A stretch of 64,000 nt of DNA from Terriglobus sp. TAA 43 (GTDB lineage: Bacteria > Acidobacteriota > Terriglobia > Terriglobales > Acidobacteriaceae), in NCBI RefSeq assembly GCF_000800015.1, contig NZ_JUGR01000001.1, positions 1,674,001 to 1,738,000 of the forward strand, given 5' to 3'. Below the pieces are notes generated by a model. It saw only the letters and a list, made by a program, of their open reading frames with translations, had not been told where the DNA came from and made no database searches. The stretch's first letter is position 1. Each line of letters starts with the position of its first letter. Position numbers and translations under genes: made by a program. Shown here in pieces: positions 50,386 through 58,292 of this stretch.

Positions 50386-53013
50386 CTAACGGGGTGGAGG
50401 CGAGCTTCCGCCTGCGGGGGACGGCCCTTTTTGCAGCAGTGGTCCGCTGTAGGGCTTGTATGGGCCTACGGGCGAGGCGACGTAGCCCTTTGCCGGCGCG
50501 GTGGGCTTGGCGGGTGTCTTTGTTGCGGGTGCATCATCCGGCATGGTCTCGTTCGAGTTATCTGCAGGCGGTGTATCGCGCACAACCGGAGCGGGTTTCG
50601 CTGCGGGTTTTGCGTTGTCGCCAGAGTCGTCGGAGTCGTCATCCGAATCGTCGTTCGGGGCTACGGGCTTCTTCACGACGGGTGCTGCGTTGTCTGTGGA
50701 TTCGGTCGTTGCGTCGACTGCGAGCGCCTTCTTCGCGGCGGTTGGGAACTGCTCATTCGGCGACCGTGCGATGGCGACCTTCATGAAGTCGATCCACATG
50801 GGCAGCGCGGCTCGTGCGCCGGTTTCTTTCTCGCCGAGTGTGCGGCGGGGATCATCAAAACCGATCCATGTGCCACATGTGACGGAGGGAGAAAAGCCGA
50901 GGAACCACGCGTCGGTATAGCTATTGGTTGTTCCCGTTTTGCCACCGATCGGATGTTTCAGCACAGCGCCTGCCTGGGCTGCCGTGCCGAATTGCGGCAC
51001 AGCTTTCAGCAGCGTCATCATGGTGCGCGCGGTCTCAACGCTGATAACTTCCTTCACCTGCGGCGAGACCTGTTTCAGCGGCAATCCATCTGCCTGCACG
51101 ATGCGGCGGATGACGTGCGGCTTGACGAGGATGCCGTCGTTGGGGAAGACAGAGTATGCGCCGACCTGCTCTGACAACTTGATGCCCGCAGAGCCGATGG
51201 CCACCGGCAGGAACGCGGGGATGTTCGACGTGACGCCGAAGCGATGCGCCACTTCAATGACCTTGCGGATGCCAACCTGATTCGCGAGCTTGAGTGCGGG
51301 GATGTTTCGCGACTCCGCGAAGGCGTTGAGAATGGTCATTGGTCCAGCGTAGTTCGGCTCGTAGTTATGCGGCGTGTACGGGCCGTTGGGCGTGTAGAAG
51401 CTGGTGGGCGCGTCCACGATGATGTCTGTGGGCTTGGTGTGAAGCTGCTCAACCGCCGTGGTGTACACGTATGGCTTGAAGCTGGAGCCGGTCTGGCGTT
51501 CCGACTGCGTAGCGCGATTGAATTGCGACAGGTTGAAGTCGCGTCCACCAACCATGGCGAGCACGTCGCCATTGGAGTTATCCATGGCCATGAGCGACGC
51601 CTGAGCGCCAGAGTCCTGCTGCAGCGACGCGTGCATGGTGGCGGTACCGCTGGTGGCGTCTTCAATGCGGACGTAGGCGATGTCGCCTTTTTGCAGAAGC
51701 TTGTCACCATTGCCCATGGTGGTCCATGCCCAGTCGTTCGCAGTCATCTCTGCGTAACGTTTGCCGATGCGAACGATGACGCGGCGGGGTGTGGCTTCAA
51801 TGACCAACGCGTGGAAGTATGCGCCGTTTTCAATCGAGTCCGTCCAGTCGGGATGCTGGTAGGTTTGCAGGTCGCCGTTGGTTTCGAAGATGTTGGTGAG
51901 TTTGCCCTTCCATCCGTGACGGCGTTCGTAGGCGGCTACGTTGTCGAGCACTGCCTTGTTCGCCACGGTTTGCAGGTCGAGGTCCATGGTGGTGTAGACC
52001 TTGAGGCCGGAGCCGTGAACGGCGTCGGCACCATACTCCTGTTCAAGCTGGCGGCGCACTTCTTCTACGAAGTAAGGAGCGATGGTGTTCGCAGGCGGCT
52101 CGATGTTGAGGCCCAGCGGTGCGGACTTTGCTTCCTGAAATTGCTGTTCGGTGATGAAGCCGTCGCCGAGCATTTCGCTGAGCACCAGGTTGCGGCGCTT
52201 GAGAGCGCGATCCGGATGGCGCACCGGCGAGTAGCTGCTGGGCCCCTTAGGGAGTGCCGCGAGCAATGCAGCCTCGGGCAGCGTGAGTTCCCTTGCCTTC
52301 TTGGAGAAGTAGTATTCGCTGCCCGCCTCAAACCCGTAGACGCCGCTGCCCAGATAGATCTGGTTGGCGTAGAGGGTGAAGATCTGTTCCTTGGTGAAGT
52401 GGCGTTCGATCTGGACAGAGAGCAGGATTTCCTGAATTTTGCGGCTCCACGTCTGATCGAGCGTCAGGAACAGGTTGCGCGCAAGCTGCATGGTGAGTGT
52501 GGATGCACCCTGACGGCGGCCCTTGGAACGCAGATCAACGTACGCCGCGCCGATGACGCGGAAGGGGTTTACGCCTGCGTTCTTGTCGAAGCTCTTGTCT
52601 TCGATGGAGAGAATGGCGTCGTGCAGCACCTTCGGGAAATCGTTGTAGGGGACGACAACGCGGCGCTCAAGAGCGAACGAGCCGATGGTGCGGCCGTGGA
52701 TGTCGAGCAGCTCGGTCGTGGTGGCCGGGCGGTAATGCTCCAGGTCTTCCATCTGCGGCAGGTCGGCCGTGTTGACCAGCGTGAGGCCGACGAGCGAGCC
52801 GAAAACGGCCGAGCAGCCGAGCAGGCTGTAGAAGATGGCGCGGCGCGCCTTTGCCCTTGTGGGGAAGTACTTGTACCACCAGGTCCGCGCGTAGGGGACG
52901 CGTTTGGGGGGCCTGCCTCCGGATTGGGGCGGGCGCCACGGTCCCTTGCCGTTGCCGGGTGCGGACTTGCGATCGCTGGAGGACGGAGTTTCGCGAGTGA
53001 ACAGGCTGGGCAC
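50386..53013 (-). CDS. mrcA: class A penicillin-binding protein (PBP1A)
   Basis: 875 residues from GTG (AGGA 6 bases upstream). A basic cytoplasmic tail and one membrane helix (about 57-78) lead to the GT51 transglycosylase domain (S-I-E-D-K-S-F, R-Q-G-A-S-T-L-T-M-Q-L-A-R-N). The transpeptidase domain has the nucleophile in G-S-S-F-K-P and the K-T-G-T-T-N box. The C-terminal 120 residues are low-complexity (Asp/Ser, then Pro/Lys-rich). Builds and crosslinks murein. The ctp-like gene lies upstream on the same strand, 194 bp away with a terminator between. Confidence 0.95.
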   Translation of the reverse strand: MPSLFTRETPSSSDRKSAPGNGKGPWRPPQSGGRPPKRVPYARTWWYKYFPTRAKARRAIFYSLLGCSAVFGSLVGLTLVNTADLPQMEDLEHYRPATTTELLDIHGRTIGSFALERRVVVPYNDFPKVLHDAILSIEDKSFDKNAGVNPFRVIGAAYVDLRSKGRRQGASTLTMQLARNLFLTLDQTWSRKIQEILLSVQIERHFTKEQIFTLYANQIYLGSGVYGFEAGSEYYFSKKARELTLPEAALLAALPKGPSSYSPVRHPDRALKRRNLVLSEMLGDGFITEQQFQEAKSAPLGLNIEPPANTIAPYFVEEVRRQLEQEYGADAVHGSGLKVYTTMDLDLQTVANKAVLDNVAAYERRHGWKGKLTNIFETNGDLQTYQHPDWTDSIENGAYFHALVIEATPRRVIVRIGKRYAEMTANDWAWTTMGNGDKLLQKGDIAYVRIEDATSGTATMHASLQQDSGAQASLMAMDNSNGDVLAMVGGRDFNLSQFNRATQSERQTGSSFKPYVYTTAVEQLHTKPTDIIVDAPTSFYTPNGPYTPHNYEPNYAGPMTILNAFAESRNIPALKLANQVGIRKVIEVAHRFGVTSNIPAFLPVAIGSAGIKLSEQVGAYSVFPNDGILVKPHVIRRIVQADGLPLKQVSPQVKEVISVETARTMMTLLKAVPQFGTAAQAGAVLKHPIGGKTGTTNSYTDAWFLGFSPSVTCGTWIGFDDPRRTLGEKETGARAALPMWIDFMKVAIARSPNEQFPTAAKKALAVDATTESTDNAAPVVKKPVAPNDDSDDDSDDSGDNAKPAAKPAPVVRDTPPADNSNETMPDDAPATKTPAKPTAPAKGYVASPVGPYKPYSGPLLQKGPSPAGGSSPPPR

Positions 53014-53154: not shown

Positions 53155-53186
53155 ACAGAAAGAGGCAGGGATTCCCTGCCTCTTTC
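53155..53186 (-). terminator. Rho-independent terminator after the S41 peptidase-like gene
   Basis: A 13-bp perfect stem (GAAAGAGGCAGGG at 53158-53170, complement 53174-53186) has a 3-base loop. It lies 22 bp after the stop on the minus strand and is followed by TTTCTGTTTG. It separates this gene from the PBP gene. Confidence 0.8.
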
Positions 53187-53207: not shown

Positions 53208-54482
53208 TTAAGCCGCTTTTGCCTTCAGGATGTCGAGCGCCTTGTTGAGCTGCTCGTCGATGTTGGCAGCGGGCTTGGCAACGGTGGTTGCGGCTGCGGC
53301 GGGCTTGGAGGAGTTCACCGTGGCGGTGCTGGCGGCTTCACTGTCGCCGTCTTCGTCGCCATCGGCCATTGCCAGTTCCTGAGCTGTGGCAACCGTGGTG
53401 GTGGGTGTCAGGCCTTCGTCCTGGTACTTCTTGCCGGAGGGCGTTTCAAACTTGGCCACAGAGAGGATGATGGCGCCGCCGTCGGCGAGTTCAAAGACGC
53501 GCTGCTGCGCGCCGTCGCCGTAGGTCTTTTCACCAACGAGTTCGCTGCGCTTGGAATCGAGTAGCGCCCCGGCGACGATCTCAGCCGCGCCCGCGGTGCC
53601 GCGATTCACCAGCGTAACCATGGGAGCCTTCTCGTTCACGGTCTTGCCGGGCTCTGCGGTGAAAGTCTGCTTGGCTACCTTCTGGCCTTCAAGCATGGCG
53701 ATGGTGCCGGACTTGAGGAAGAGGTTGGCCAGACGGATGCCTTCGGCGTCGTCGCCCGAGGAAACGTCACGCAGATCGAGCAGGATCTTCTTGGAGTTGG
53801 TGCGACCCATGGCCTTCAGCTTCTGCTCCACCTGCTGCACGTGATCTTTGTCGATGATGCCGGGCTTGATGTAGAGGATGGAGCCGCCTTCATAGAAGAC
53901 TTCGCCGGTTGAGGGGAGCGACGTGTCCGTACGTGTGAGCGTGAGCTTCTCCGGGGCGTTCTTCATGGGGCGGATCATGGAAAGCACAACCGGCGTCCCC
54001 TTTTCGCCACCCAGTGCCATCTGTACTTCTGCCAGCGACATTTCCATTGTGCTGCGATCGCCAATGGATTCAATACGATCGCCACTGTGGAGGCCAGCCT
54101 TGTCTGCCGGTCCGCCTGCGACCACCGAAATAACAGTAGCGATGCCGTAACGCTTGCCTACGTCGGCACCGATGCCCGCCTGCGGCTTGCCGACGTGCTC
54201 CTTGTATAGCTTGTACTCAGTCGGGGACAGGTAGCTGGATTCGGCGTCGAGCGACTCAAGAAGGCCGCGCATGGAGGCGTCGGTCACCTTGGGCATGTTG
54301 GGGTCGACCACGTAGTCAGACTGAATGTGGCGAAGGACTTCGCTGTAGACCTGCATCTGGCGATAGGCACCGTCCTGCGCCTGTCCGGACGCATGTACCC
54401 GACGCAGGTTTGCGCCCAGAAACATGGTGAGCAGCAGAACAGCGGAAACAGCCAGCGTGGAAATCTTGAGCGACTTCGGCAT
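53208..54482 (-). CDS. S41 (C-terminal processing) peptidase homologue lacking catalytic Ser and Lys
   Basis: 424 residues: N-terminal membrane anchor/signal (8-24), CTP N-domain, PDZ domain (about 97-175: A-G-I-G-A-D-V...G-P-A-D-K-A-G-L-H-S-G-D-R-I), S41 core (about 200-370) and an Ala/Thr-rich tail. Active members read G-T-A-S-A-S-E-I and, 25 residues later, Y-G-K-G. Here the core reads G-T-A-G298-A-A-E-I and Y-G-D323-G, so both the nucleophile and the general base are gone at exactly the expected spacing, while the fold is well kept. Periplasmic scaffold or regulator role is inferred. Confidence 0.88.
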   Translation of the reverse strand: MPKSLKISTLAVSAVLLLTMFLGANLRRVHASGQAQDGAYRQMQVYSEVLRHIQSDYVVDPNMPKVTDASMRGLLESLDAESSYLSPTEYKLYKEHVGKPQAGIGADVGKRYGIATVISVVAGGPADKAGLHSGDRIESIGDRSTMEMSLAEVQMALGGEKGTPVVLSMIRPMKNAPEKLTLTRTDTSLPSTGEVFYEGGSILYIKPGIIDKDHVQQVEQKLKAMGRTNSKKILLDLRDVSSGDDAEGIRLANLFLKSGTIAMLEGQKVAKQTFTAEPGKTVNEKAPMVTLVNRGTAGAAEIVAGALLDSKRSELVGEKTYGDGAQQRVFELADGGAIILSVAKFETPSGKKYQDEGLTPTTTVATAQELAMADGDEDGDSEAASTATVNSSKPAAAATTVAKPAANIDEQLNKALDILKAKAA

Positions 54483-54620: not shown

Positions 54621-55409
54621 TCAGTTCTCGTCGGGAAGCTCGAGTGTATCCACGACGAGCACCTGCACCGGCCCAGTGATTGGCTTAAGTTCAAGTCCCA
54701 GAGTCTCTTTGACAGCAGTGAAGATGGAAGGCGCATCGTCGGCTGCTGAACCGGGGGACAATTCCGATTTGTCGGCAGACCATTTGAGATGAAAGTCGTA
54801 CTGCCCTGTCAATCCGGTACGGTTTTCGACGGGACGCCTAAGGGTTCCCGCCAGCCCCTTCGCGAGATCGTCCGTGGTGACACTTTCGGCAGACCAGTTG
54901 TATAGATTTCGACCGCTGGACGTCCGTGTGAAAGTGGTCGGTGTGAGCTTGCTCCCGCCCTTTGCCACAACCAACGCATACTCTGGAGCGTCGCGTGTGA
55001 TCCAGTGGGTCTTGAGGCCGAAACGCTCCTGTAGCACCCGGATCACCATGGCTCTTCTCTGGTCGAGAGTGAGGGCGTCGATGGCCTGCGGTGTGGCGTC
55101 GAGGATCTTGCCTTGAATGTCGAAGTGAAGTCTTTTGCCCCAGTCGGGAACGCCATCAATCAAATACTCTTGCTGGTCGAATACGTCCCATAGGGCAACC
55201 TGAAGCGTGATGTTCTCCAACTGCAGCATGTCACCACTGTGGTACATGGAGGCCATCGTCGATGAGCCGGTTTTGTTTGGCTTTACGGTCACCGCGTCGA
55301 ACTTGAGGGGTGAGGTGACGTCCTGGTGAACCTGCTGAGCCCTAAGCCCGTGAACGGTTGCAGGCAGGCTTAAGAGAACGAGAATCCACTGAAGACTGTG
55401 CCTGGTCAT
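54621..55409 (-). CDS. TIGR03435 family protein
   Basis: 262 residues from ATG 55409 (GAGG 8 bases upstream). Signal peptide (LVLLSLPATVHGLRA). Mature part with F-D-A-V-T-V-K-P-N at the start, V-P-D-W-G-K-R-L-H-F-D-I-Q-G-K, R-R-A-M-V-I-R-V-L-Q-E-R-F-G-L-K-T-H, Y-A-L-V-V-A-K-G-G-S-K-L and R-P-V-E-N-R-T-G-L-T-G-Q-Y-D-F. Distant paralogue of the 19831-20616 product. Both family members end near D/P-rich T-L-E-L-P-D-E-N or A-P-P-T-E-N sequences. Confidence 0.88.
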   Translation of the reverse strand: MTRHSLQWILVLLSLPATVHGLRAQQVHQDVTSPLKFDAVTVKPNKTGSSTMASMYHSGDMLQLENITLQVALWDVFDQQEYLIDGVPDWGKRLHFDIQGKILDATPQAIDALTLDQRRAMVIRVLQERFGLKTHWITRDAPEYALVVAKGGSKLTPTTFTRTSSGRNLYNWSAESVTTDDLAKGLAGTLRRPVENRTGLTGQYDFHLKWSADKSELSPGSAADDAPSIFTAVKETLGLELKPITGPVQVLVVDTLELPDEN

Positions 55410-55510
55410 CTGCAAAACCTCGATGCTCCACTTTGCTGAGAATGACTTGATCGCTGCGCGGCCAGTATAGATTCCCAACCCCGACAGGTCTTCCCGTGGG
55501 ACTTGCTTAC

Positions 55511-55577: not shown

Positions 55578-58292
55578 TTATTCGGGGCGGCGCTTGGGTG
55601 CTCCGCCGCGGCCTGGGCCATCGCCCGGTCCCTTGCGGGAGGGTTTGAAGCCTGGCTTGCCGAAGCTGCCGGGGCCACCCTTGCGGTCGCGTCCGAAGCC
55701 TGAGCCGCCGAACTTGGCTCCGCCGGGACCTGCCGAGTGTCCGCCGCTACGGAAGGACGGACGGCCTTCGCCGGGTTCGCCGGAGAAGCGAGCGCGCTCG
55801 CCACGACCCTCGAAGCTGCCGCCACGGTCTGCACCGAAGGGCTTGCGCGGGCCACCAAAGGACTTACGTTCGCCGAACGGCTTGCGGTCGCCGAAGCTGG
55901 GACGGTCACCACGTGGGGTGAAGGGACGATCGCCACGCGGGGTGAACGGACGACGTTCGCCGCCTTCGCGTGGGGTGAACGGCTTGCGGTCGCCATACGA
56001 GGGACGGTCGCCACGTGGGGTGAACGGACGGCCTTCACCGCCTTCACGAGGTGTGAAGGGTTTGCGGTCGCCAAAGCTCTTGCGATCACCGTACGGCTTA
56101 CGGTCGCCGTACGAAGGACGGTCGCCGCGCGGCGTGAACGGACGGTCACCACCCTCACGAGGTGTGAAGGGACGACGATCGCCCCCTTCGCGTGGAGTGA
56201 AGGGCTTGCGGTCACCAAAAGGCTTACGGTCGCCGAAGCTGGGGCGATCACCACGAGGGGTGAACGGACGATCACCGCGGGGAGTGAACGGACGGCCTTC
56301 GCCACCTTCACGCGGGGTGAAGGGCTTGCGATCACCGAAGCTCTTGCGCTCGCCGAACGGCTTACGGTCGCCGTAGGAAGGACGGTCGCCACGAGGTGTA
56401 AACGGACGATCACCGCCCTCACGAGGTGTGAAGGGACGACGCTCGCCACCTTCGCGGTCGCCGAAGCTCTTGCGTTCGCCGAACGGCTTGCGATCACCGA
56501 AGGGCTTACGGTCGCCGTAGGAAGGACGATCACCACGCGGGGTAAACGGACGGTCGCCACGAGGCGTGAACGGACGATCACCGCGGGGAGTGAACGGACG
56601 GCCTTCGCCGCCTTCACGTGGGGTGAAGGGCTTGCGGTCACCGAAGCTCTTGCGCTCGCCGAAAGGCTTGCGGTCGCCAAAGGAGGGGCGGTCACCGCGA
56701 GGCGTGAACGGACGACGCTCGCCGCCTTCGCGCGGGGTGAAGGGCTTGCGCTCTCCACGATCCTCGTCCCAGGGACGTGCAAATTCGTTGCGAGGACGGT
56801 CGGTCGTTCCACCTTCGTCGCGGCGGGTGAAGGGACGACGCTCGCGGTCAGTACGCGGGGTAAAGCCTTCGCGGTTGCCGCCAAAGCCACCGGAGCGGCG
56901 TTGCGGGGTGAATCCGCCTTCGCGACGCGGCGCAAAGCCACCTTCGCGGCGGGGACGGAAGCCACCCTGTTCGCCTTCGCGGCGGAAGGGCTTGCGCTCT
57001 TCCGGTGTGCCACCTTCTGCGGCAAAGCGGGCGTTGCGGGCTTCGATCATGGCGCGGCGGTCGTCGTCTTCATAGCGCGAACGCTGCTGCACGAAGGGTT
57101 CCGTGGAGGCTACGGTGTTGTCTTCCGGCAGGCTGTCGAGCGCGCCGGGGAGGAAGTGGGCGGTCTTGCCGTCCAGCACGATGGAATCAAGCTGGCGCGA
57201 GGCCGACAGGCCATTCACGACTTCGCGGACGCGCGAACGTGCAGCAAGCGGCGAGAGGAAGATTTCCATCTCGTCACTGGTGGCAGCAACGGTCTGCGAC
57301 AGGTACAGCGACAGCAGCGCTGACAGCGCCGTGGGCTGGCCCGCGTTGGCGCCTGCCTTGATGTGGCGCAGGTAGCGGCCGCTGGCAACTTCCCAGGTGG
57401 CGGGCTCGCCGTCTGCATTCGGGATGGGAACGACGCGCAGGATGGACCACAGCTCGCTGAGAGCGCGCAGAACAGCCGAATCCACGATGCCCTGGCCGAG
57501 TTCCGTGCTGAGTTCGTGCGGCGCCATGGCGCCCTTTTCCTTCAGCAGATCGTATGCCTTGGCAGCGAGAGGAGAGACGCGCATCGCGCCGGTCTGGGAG
57601 GGTTCGTTCTTGAAGTTCTTGTCACCGCGGAGGGTGTAAATAAACGAAAACGCCTGTGCCGAGCAGACAAAGTCTGGCTCGCCGAGCGAGTTACCAAGGA
57701 GGTTCAGCGGCACTGCAGTGCCGTCCTCAACGAGACGGGCAAGCATGCGGCGGACTTCTTCGCGCTCTTCGAGAGAGAAGCCATTGATGGCCTTCGGCGC
57801 TTCGACAGCCTCTTCAGCAGCTGCTTCGGCGTCTGCTTCAATCTTGTCTTCTTCGGCGATCTCGTCGCCTTCGTCTTCTGCGAACTCGTCGTCGTTGGAG
57901 ATCATCACTTCGTCATCGGAAGCTTCATCGTCAGCGAACTCTACAGCGTCGGCAGGCTCATCGTCGTCTTCGTCGATGTCTTCCACTTCGTCGGCGGGTT
58001 CTTCATCTTCAACTTCGACGGCGTAGGATTCATCCTCGCTGGGACCGTCGGTCTCTTCGGTTTCTGCCTGGGGAATCCAGTTCTTTTCGGGGCGTCCGAG
58101 GACAGCTTCTGAGAAGCTGGGCTGCGGCGCAGCGGCGAACTGGGCGTGGGGCGTGTACGCGACGATGCCGGCTTCGTCGAGCCATGTGCGGAGATCGTCA
58201 AGCGTTTGGAGGGCGTTGCCGTCCTGATGCCAAAGGGCCACGCGCGCAAGTTTTAATTGGTTTTGGGTAGGGGTTACTGGCGAAGTTGCCAT
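55578..58292 (-). CDS. 904-residue protein: winged-helix-like core with an RG/FTPR-rich repeat tail
   Basis: Residues 1-75 form a small helical domain. About 76-160 is strongly acidic. About 165-390 is a globular core (F-S-F-I-Y-T-L-R-G-D-K-N-F, L-A-A-K-A-Y-D-L-L-K-E-K-G-A-M-A-P-H-E-L, L-R-A-L-S-E-L-W-S-I-L-R-V-V-P), reminiscent of the tandem winged-helix AlkZ/YcaQ-like proteins, though the link is tentative. From about 415 to the end the chain is Arg/Gly-rich; residues 513-813 are repeats built from R-K-P-F-T-P-R-E-G-G, R-P-F-T-P-R-G-D and R-P-S-F/Y-G-D-R-K. No signal peptide. Probably a nucleic-acid-binding, phase-separating protein. Confidence 0.8.
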   Translation of the reverse strand: MATSPVTPTQNQLKLARVALWHQDGNALQTLDDLRTWLDEAGIVAYTPHAQFAAAPQPSFSEAVLGRPEKNWIPQAETEETDGPSEDESYAVEVEDEEPADEVEDIDEDDDEPADAVEFADDEASDDEVMISNDDEFAEDEGDEIAEEDKIEADAEAAAEEAVEAPKAINGFSLEEREEVRRMLARLVEDGTAVPLNLLGNSLGEPDFVCSAQAFSFIYTLRGDKNFKNEPSQTGAMRVSPLAAKAYDLLKEKGAMAPHELSTELGQGIVDSAVLRALSELWSILRVVPIPNADGEPATWEVASGRYLRHIKAGANAGQPTALSALLSLYLSQTVAATSDEMEIFLSPLAARSRVREVVNGLSASRQLDSIVLDGKTAHFLPGALDSLPEDNTVASTEPFVQQRSRYEDDDRRAMIEARNARFAAEGGTPEERKPFRREGEQGGFRPRREGGFAPRREGGFTPQRRSGGFGGNREGFTPRTDRERRPFTRRDEGGTTDRPRNEFARPWDEDRGERKPFTPREGGERRPFTPRGDRPSFGDRKPFGERKSFGDRKPFTPREGGEGRPFTPRGDRPFTPRGDRPFTPRGDRPSYGDRKPFGDRKPFGERKSFGDREGGERRPFTPREGGDRPFTPRGDRPSYGDRKPFGERKSFGDRKPFTPREGGEGRPFTPRGDRPFTPRGDRPSFGDRKPFGDRKPFTPREGGDRRPFTPREGGDRPFTPRGDRPSYGDRKPYGDRKSFGDRKPFTPREGGEGRPFTPRGDRPSYGDRKPFTPREGGERRPFTPRGDRPFTPRGDRPSFGDRKPFGERKSFGGPRKPFGADRGGSFEGRGERARFSGEPGEGRPSFRSGGHSAGPGGAKFGGSGFGRDRKGGPGSFGKPGFKPSRKGPGDGPGRGGAPKRRPE
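55860..56760. repeat. coding tandem repeat array with a 306-bp higher-order period
   Basis: Units of 24-60 bp encode F-T-P-R-G-D-R and F-G-D/E-R-K blocks. A 108-bp stretch starting at 56262 recurs at 56568 with about five substitutions, an offset of 306 bp (102 codons), so the reading frame is preserved. The array is free of stops in several frames, which produces long false reading frames on both strands. Confidence 0.85.

Follow-up and report, generated by a model that had tools for sequence, protein, structure and literature searches.

A probable non-proteolytic CtpA orthologue of Acidobacteriota and its possible role at peptidoglycan enzymes

C-terminal processing peptidases (CTPs) of the S41 family are proteases that trim cell-wall hydrolases. 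Dead S41 folds are already known: the modules of IRBP have this fold in a non-proteolytic role and lack a PDZ domain. According to excerpts of PMC8764530, the catalytic triad of CtpA consists of Ser302, Lys327 and Gln331, and excerpts of PMC3808539 describe Arg168 of CtpB as the residue that couples the PDZ domain to the active site. In Pseudomonas aeruginosa, ctpA is part of the operon envC-ctpA-PA5135, in which PA5135 is the orthologue of yibQ/sddA (PMC12569750, in part); SddA is treated also in PMC12440217 (in part). That dead proteases can act as regulators is, judging from partial sources, already known; in the top-ranked open-licence PMC literature we found no description of a widely conserved dead CtpA.

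Here we compare with these systems a CTP-like gene of Terriglobus sp. TAA 43 that lies in a window of 64,000 nucleotides (the whole stretch of DNA that was analysed; contig NZ_JUGR01000001.1, positions 1,674,001 to 1,738,000). The comparison suggests that a CtpA unable to cut is apparently retained in many lineages of the Acidobacteriota, a phylum abundant in soil.

A CTP fold with replaced catalytic residues

The pseudo-CTP gene occupies positions 53208..54482 of the window on the minus strand, on which all other window features named below also lie, and codes for 424 residues that the open reading frame, Pfam matches and an AF2 model (pLDDT 83.8, pTM 0.76) mark as a probable degenerate CtpA orthologue. 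The sequence-only reading had given the boundaries of the open reading frame exactly and had named no strand. The reading frame is intact. At its N-terminus, the protein has a hydrophobic helix (residues 3-23; 54414..54476; H3-23 in the AF2 model) that is predicted to be a membrane anchor or signal. This is followed by the AF2 helices H39-56 and H63-78 (residues 39-78; 54249..54368), which in an alignment to CtpA lie at the place of its N-terminal dimerisation region (PMC8764530, in part), by a PDZ domain with a GIGA loop at its start (residues 103-175; 53958..54176; PF13180, 37.9 bits against a cut-off of 27, and PF17820, 41.6 bits against 27) and by the S41 core (residues 212-363; 53394..53849; PF03572, E 2.6e-30, 105.6 bits against a cut-off of 24). 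The C-terminal helix DEQLNKALDILKAK (residues 410-423; 53214..53255; AF2 H410-423) occupies the position that the C-terminal dimerisation helix has in CtpA. With the Pfam cut-offs passed and the fold that of a CTP, the protein is a homologue of the S41/CTP family; its score against the NCBIfam model TIGR00225 (prc), 204.8 bits, is below the curated cut-off of 218.6.

For comparison, a close set was made up of the window protein and 80 named loci (L033-L112) out of 513 confirmed loci, mostly from Terriglobus, Granulicella, Edaphobacter and the like; that these and f1 belong to the Acidobacteriaceae we infer (f1, f2, f3 and f26 are number labels of GTDB families). Other Acidobacteriota families contributed 60 loci (L113-L152 and L183-L202), which are not a random sample and were picked by hand from match lists, with one to a few from each GTDB family; 56 of them are without the Ser/Lys pair and are referred to as the other dead sequences. 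The ordinary S41 proteins of the phylum are represented by 31 sequences, L001 and the 30 best Pfam matches (L153-L182), a set biased to intact proteins. The DEQLNKALDILKAK motif is present in 56/81 sequences of the close set, in 16/56 other dead sequences, in one of the four with Ser and Lys and in one of the 31 ordinary S41 proteins.

The sequence-only reading had described a CTP layout in which Gly and Asp replace the catalytic Ser and Lys at a distance of 25 residues, and Pfam, the AF2 fold and the spacing of CtpA all confirm it. Sequence and alignment place Gly298 (53589..53591) at the Ser position and Asp323 (53514..53516) at the Lys position, and the third triad residue, Gln327 (53502..53504), is kept; the protein is therefore without the Ser-Lys-Gln triad of active enzymes, and the spacing of 25 and 4 residues between these positions is the same as in Ser302-Lys327-Gln331 of CtpA (PMC8764530, in part).

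Among the 137 relatives without the Ser/Lys pair (the window protein, the 80 close ones and the 56 from other families), the Ser position is Gly in 131, i.e. in the entire close set (81/81) and in 50/56 other dead sequences, the remainder of which have Asn (2), Gln (2), Tyr (1) or Ser (1); it is Ser in 31/31 ordinary S41 proteins, as read in a set biased to intact ones. Lys is retained in just two of the 137, L186 and L190. In the close set its position is taken by Glu (69), Asp (6), Ile (3), Gln (2) or Ala (1); an acid is found here in 83/89 sequences if the eight f2 and f3 loci are added, and beyond these groups the position holds Arg, Ala, Gln, Met and others. Conservation of the two substitutions, which the sequence-only reading had proposed to check, is seen for the Gly; the residue that replaces Lys varies by lineage. 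The third triad Gln is kept in 128/137 dead sequences (close set: Gln 79, Leu 2). Both Ser and Lys are kept in four of the 60 other-family loci, L152, L183, L185 and L187, the last of which has Thr in place of Gln.

Residues 239-243 (53754..53768) read DVSSG, where the 31 ordinary S41 proteins have x-N-x-G-G, which we take to be the oxyanion-side motif. Asn240 is found in 31/31 ordinary S41 proteins, in 0/81 sequences of the close set (one of them has an X) and in 6/56 other dead sequences; for Gly242 the counts are 31/31, 14/81 and 12/56, and Gly243 is mostly kept (31/31, 75/81 and 54/56). A nucleophile shifted to residue 296 or 297 is ruled out: Thr296 is likewise Thr or Ser in ordinary S41 proteins, and residue 297 varies (Ala 45, Ser 19 and Tyr 17 of the 81 sequences of the close set).

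In the PDZ domain, Gly158 (54009..54011) aligns with an Arg of active CTPs that is presumed to be the PDZ sensor, and alignment to the CtpA proteins of Helicobacter pylori and P. aeruginosa suggests that column 158 is the counterpart of Arg168 of CtpB. This column is Arg or Lys in 31/31 ordinary S41 proteins; in the close set it is Arg in 2/81 and Glu in 57/81. Given that 26/56 other dead sequences keep Arg or Lys here, loss of the sensor is a trait of the group to which the window protein belongs and not of the whole dead clade. The first position of the PDZ loop is Gly in 31/31 ordinary S41 proteins and in the window protein, and Gln in 78/81 sequences of the close set; the other dead sequences have various residues there.

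Ancestry, order of losses and maintenance

In an IQ-TREE phylogeny of 81 sequences, from which the seven diagnostic columns had been removed, 69 family members are separated from 12 ordinary S41 proteins with an ultrafast bootstrap of 100, and in a FastTree phylogeny of 86 sequences the family stands apart from the ordinary S41 proteins of the phylum with a support of 1.0. These trees cover Acidobacteriota sequences; proteobacterial CtpA was compared by pairwise and fold matches. Several deep nodes are weak, with values of 59, 71 and 73 in IQ-TREE and of 0.185 for the base node in a FastTree phylogeny of 172 sequences, in which the branches of L189 and L193 are long and unreliable.

The CTPs of the phylum that are linked to M23 and yibQ genes fall inside the pseudo-CTP clade. 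Four members of f26 were sampled, of which L152, L183 and L185 have Ser-Lys-Gln and L186 has Gly-Lys-Gln; L190, on a branch neighbouring f26, has Gly-Lys-Arg. Because Lys is accompanied by Gly in L186 and L190, Ser seems to have been lost first and Lys later, and the stepwise origin of a pseudoprotease can be read from these sequences. L186 and L190 may represent intermediate stages in the death of the protease. The Ser-Lys-Gln members of f26 nest amid dead ones, at nodes of low support (59 and 73; Fitch count 2), and parallel losses of Ser are therefore possible.

Upstream of the Ser-Lys-Gln CTPs L152, L183 and L185 lies an M23 gene that is EnvC-like, and yibQ lies downstream in L152 and L183; in L152, where by Pfam the upstream gene codes for an M23 peptidase and the downstream one for a divergent polysaccharide deacetylase (PF04748), the gene order is that of envC-ctpA-PA5135 in P. 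aeruginosa (PMC12569750, in part). M23 and yibQ are both kept beside the dead genes L146 (by Pfam), L184, L186 and L188. The window gene has neither envC nor yibQ beside it, its neighbours being the genes of PBP1A and of a DUF3738 protein. Given that both Ser-Lys-Gln members of f26 and dead members occur in the envC-type order, the most likely identity of the window gene is that of a degenerate CtpA orthologue; an origin from CtpA in the strict sense is what we infer. Judged by its sequence, we hold it very probable that the window protein is a non-proteolytic CtpA orthologue.

A search with the window protein gave a match in 149/150 genomes of its own GTDB family, its own genome included. Matches of E 1e-90 or better were found in 132/150 (own genome included; counted by eye), partial matches in four further genomes (G009, G118, G125 and G139) and weaker matches or none in 14/150, of which G001, G046, G086 and G112 are at least 90% complete; the gene seems to be absent from a few near-complete genomes of the family (G046, G086 and G112). 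The match in G058 (L017) has an in-frame stop. Gly occupies the Ser position in 30/30 of the family loci listed, which may share species with the 80 named ones, and the nearest named relative among the matches listed is Terriglobus roseus L033 (75% identical). More than two dozen GTDB families are represented among the dead sequences. Searches with model A1 gave matches in 150/150 genomes of the order at E 1e-60 and in 269/297 genomes of the phylum at E 1e-40; both include ordinary S41 proteins and so do not measure how common the dead form is.

Between the window gene and its congeners L004 and L005, dN/dS is 0.028 and 0.043 (dS 0.52 and 0.59), and against L033 it is 0.082 with dS saturated. 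As judged from the two congeners, the gene is maintained in the genus by purifying selection. Loss of both catalytic residues and a TIGR00225 score under the cut-off are what a decaying gene or a sequence error might also produce; Gly in 81/81 sequences and a dN/dS of 0.03-0.04 rule out a sequence error or pseudogene, and with an intact frame and close matches throughout most of the family the chance of this explanation is next to nil. The kept fold, the purifying selection and the prevalence of Gly support instead a pseudopeptidase with a conserved fold, as had been proposed from the sequence.

Gene neighbourhood and its changes between lineages

The next gene downstream encodes a class A PBP, PBP1A (50386..53013; TIGR02074, 581.4 bits, cut-off 508.75). 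Neighbouring genes were called as longest non-overlapping open reading frames or by phmmer on stop-to-stop open reading frames, and distances are approximate. PBP1A lies directly next on the same strand in 74/80 close-relative loci and 4.3 kb from the pseudo-CTP gene in L102. No PBP1A is present within 6 kb in 5/80 (L048, L050, L061, L105 and L108); the sequence ends just past the gene in L050 and L105 and 1.4 kb past it in L061, and in L108 PBP1A is 6.1 kb off. In the flanks of the 60 other-family loci, scanned over distances that for most reached about 7 or 4 kb and for some were shorter, phmmer with the window PBP1A found none at E 1e-10. The f3 locus L119, of the same class and another family, has a gene for a monofunctional GT51 transglycosylase (52-bit match to the PBP1A query), and no GT51 neighbour was found at the other f3 locus, L120. 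With none in these 60 flanks, the GT51 protein of L119 excepted, PBP1A is ruled out as a universal or ancestral partner. The neighbour named by the sequence-only reading is thus indeed a class A PBP and is shared by close relatives, and it was not found in the scanned flanks of other families: the PBP1A link is lineage-specific. The order of pseudo-CTP and PBP1A is also seen in L064, L071 and L074, which are labelled Rhodanobacteraceae or Verrucomicrobia and are probably mislabelled bins.

Between the two genes, just 3' of the pseudo-CTP stop codon, there is a terminator-like hairpin of 13 perfect pairs with a weak T tail (53158..53186), which counts against a tight pseudo-CTP/PBP1A operon in the window. 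Hairpins 3' of the gene occur in 24/79 close-relative loci versus 32/240 control stretches, only about twice as frequently. Hairpins of different sequence lie at a similar place in T. roseus L033 and in L034. A scan of the window for -35/-10 patterns gave four matches, below the 17 expected by chance, and no sigma-70-like site was found near the pseudo-CTP gene.

Outside the close set, the neighbours are different ones. Upstream, 21 of the 60 other loci have an adjacent M23 gene of the same orientation, 25 have mltG and 27 have ruvX; downstream, 20 have thrS and 7 have yibQ. Any of M23, mltG, thrS and yibQ is present in 41/60 loci. The mltG context may be mere position, given that mltG adjoins the housekeeping genes ruvX and thrS. 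The f2 loci L114 and L117 have two large genes downstream in common; in L114, the first of these shows a weak SpoIVB/S55 match.

Upstream of the pseudo-CTP gene, the window encodes a TIGR03435/DUF3738 protein (54621-55478). When the flanks of 80 named and 40 distant loci (120 in all) were searched with it, a single match emerged, in L050 at ~1.8 kb, and the gene is therefore not a conserved neighbour. An open reading frame of 904 aa at 55578-58292 has a C-terminal half made up of a long Arg/Gly/Pro-rich repeat (RPFTPRGDRPSYGDRKPFG...); Pfam gave no match to it at E 0.001. A comparison with PHROGs gave no match.

A possible role without proteolysis

Since the dead form is widely kept and often lies beside cell-wall genes, its function there is probably one that involves no protein cleavage. 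The best explanation overall, to which we assign a probability of roughly 0.6, is that the gene encodes a pseudo-CtpA of Acidobacteriota that acts as a scaffold or restraint of peptidoglycan enzymes. Of the parts of this reading, a function as peptidoglycan scaffold or regulator, taken by itself, is an even bet, and it is doubtful that PBP1A is the direct partner. In this model, the protein would have arisen from a CtpA encoded in an envC-ctpA-yibQ (sddA) operon by substitution of both Ser, for which Gly stands in nearly all cases, and Lys, with the fold, the PDZ domain and the dimerisation helices kept and Gln mostly kept. The protein would be exported and anchored in the membrane and would oligomerise like CtpA through its N- and C-terminal helices; its PDZ domain and dead tunnel would capture protein C-termini without cutting them, and it may scaffold or restrain EnvC-controlled amidases, MltG and PBP1A. 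An LpoA-like regulator of PBP1A is a candidate role suggested by the adjacency of the two genes in close relatives. A tentative extension, which we regard as distinctly less likely than the general reading, is that the CtpA of Acidobacteriota became a non-proteolytic adaptor, of EnvC/SddA first and of MltG later, and a PBP1A cofactor in Acidobacteriaceae. If this were true, an adaptor would directly control both peptidoglycan synthases and hydrolases, and a new type of class A PBP regulator would have arisen from a dead protease. Against a peptidoglycan role count the 19/60 other loci without an M23, mltG, thrS or yibQ neighbour, and the altered PDZ loop of most close relatives counts against the model as well. 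Pseudo-CtpA is a concrete candidate for control of cell-wall synthesis in Acidobacteriota.

The genome of the window has two S41 genes, one with Ser-Lys-Gln (L001) and the other being the pseudo-CTP gene, and the dead CTP could pair with the active protease as a prozyme-type partner and modulate or inhibit it. The retained dimerisation helices suit such pairing, as does the description of H. pylori CtpA, in excerpts of PMC12749690, with one active subunit possible per N-dimer, which would leave room for a dead subunit. However, L001 belongs to a longer subfamily (570 aa) outside the clade, which makes mixed assembly less natural, and its gene is on another contig than the pseudo-CTP gene; we consider this explanation unlikely. 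Equally unlikely in our view is a role in the envelope that has nothing to do with peptidoglycan, such as holding exported proteins in the manner of a chaperone or taking part in a lipopolysaccharide or outer-membrane step, with the neighbours being in part a relic of the envC operon. A cytidylyltransferase gene, presumably KdsB-like, lies upstream in 50/80 close-relative loci, and a gene for a BamA-like Omp85 protein lies downstream in the f2 locus L118, both in favour of such a role; the neighbours, although they shift by lineage, still include peptidoglycan enzymes in several lineages, i.e. EnvC-like proteins, YibQ, MltG, PBP1A and one GT51 protein, which would not be expected from a relic alone.

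The protein could alternatively still be a hydrolase that uses another nucleophile or a changed mechanism in a Gly-acid-Gln pocket. The prevailing acid at the Lys position in the close set, f2 and f3 and the frequency of Gln suggest that the pocket is not drifting freely; yet no Ser, Thr or Cys emerges as a steady substitute nucleophile, the close set has lost the N-x-G-G motif, and outside the close set, f2 and f3 the Lys position is filled by diverse residues, all of which makes continued hydrolysis very improbable.

The pseudo-CtpA reading can be set against several described systems. Pseudoproteases such as the iRhoms and CspC of Clostridioides difficile are, according to partial sources, likewise dead enzymes kept for regulation, in folds and pathways other than those of pseudo-CTP. 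The modules of IRBP (retinol-binding protein 3) share the S41 fold (4lur, Z 19.0, rmsd 4.3, 248 residues aligned) and are distant, with 18% identity, IRBP being an animal lipid carrier. The PDZ loop Gly113-Ala116 of Bacillus subtilis CtpB is GIGA, as in the window protein (PMC3808539, in part), which differs from CtpB in its dead triad and in having Gly at the column of the Arg168-type sensor. The AF2 model is nearer to resting CtpB (4c2e_A, Z 34.1) than to active CtpB (4c2c_A, Z 23.9); the better match to the resting form would fit a non-cycling protein, and bias of the predictor may explain it. The best matches of all are to H. pylori CtpA, in structure (9jr1_A, Z 38.0, rmsd 3.1, 344 residues aligned, 33% identity) and in sequence (9ku0_A, phmmer E 8.5e-49); this CtpA is an active protease, whereas the window protein is without Ser and Lys. 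P. aeruginosa CtpA of the CtpA-LbcA system (8sxe_B, Z 36.4, rmsd 3.4, 349 residues aligned) has its domain order, triad spacing and dimerisation helices in common with the window protein, in which its Ser302 and Lys327 are replaced by Gly and Asp and the oxyanion-side motif and PDZ sensor are changed, and the envC-CTP-yibQ gene order of P. aeruginosa is common to some Ser-Lys-Gln and some dead relatives of the window gene.
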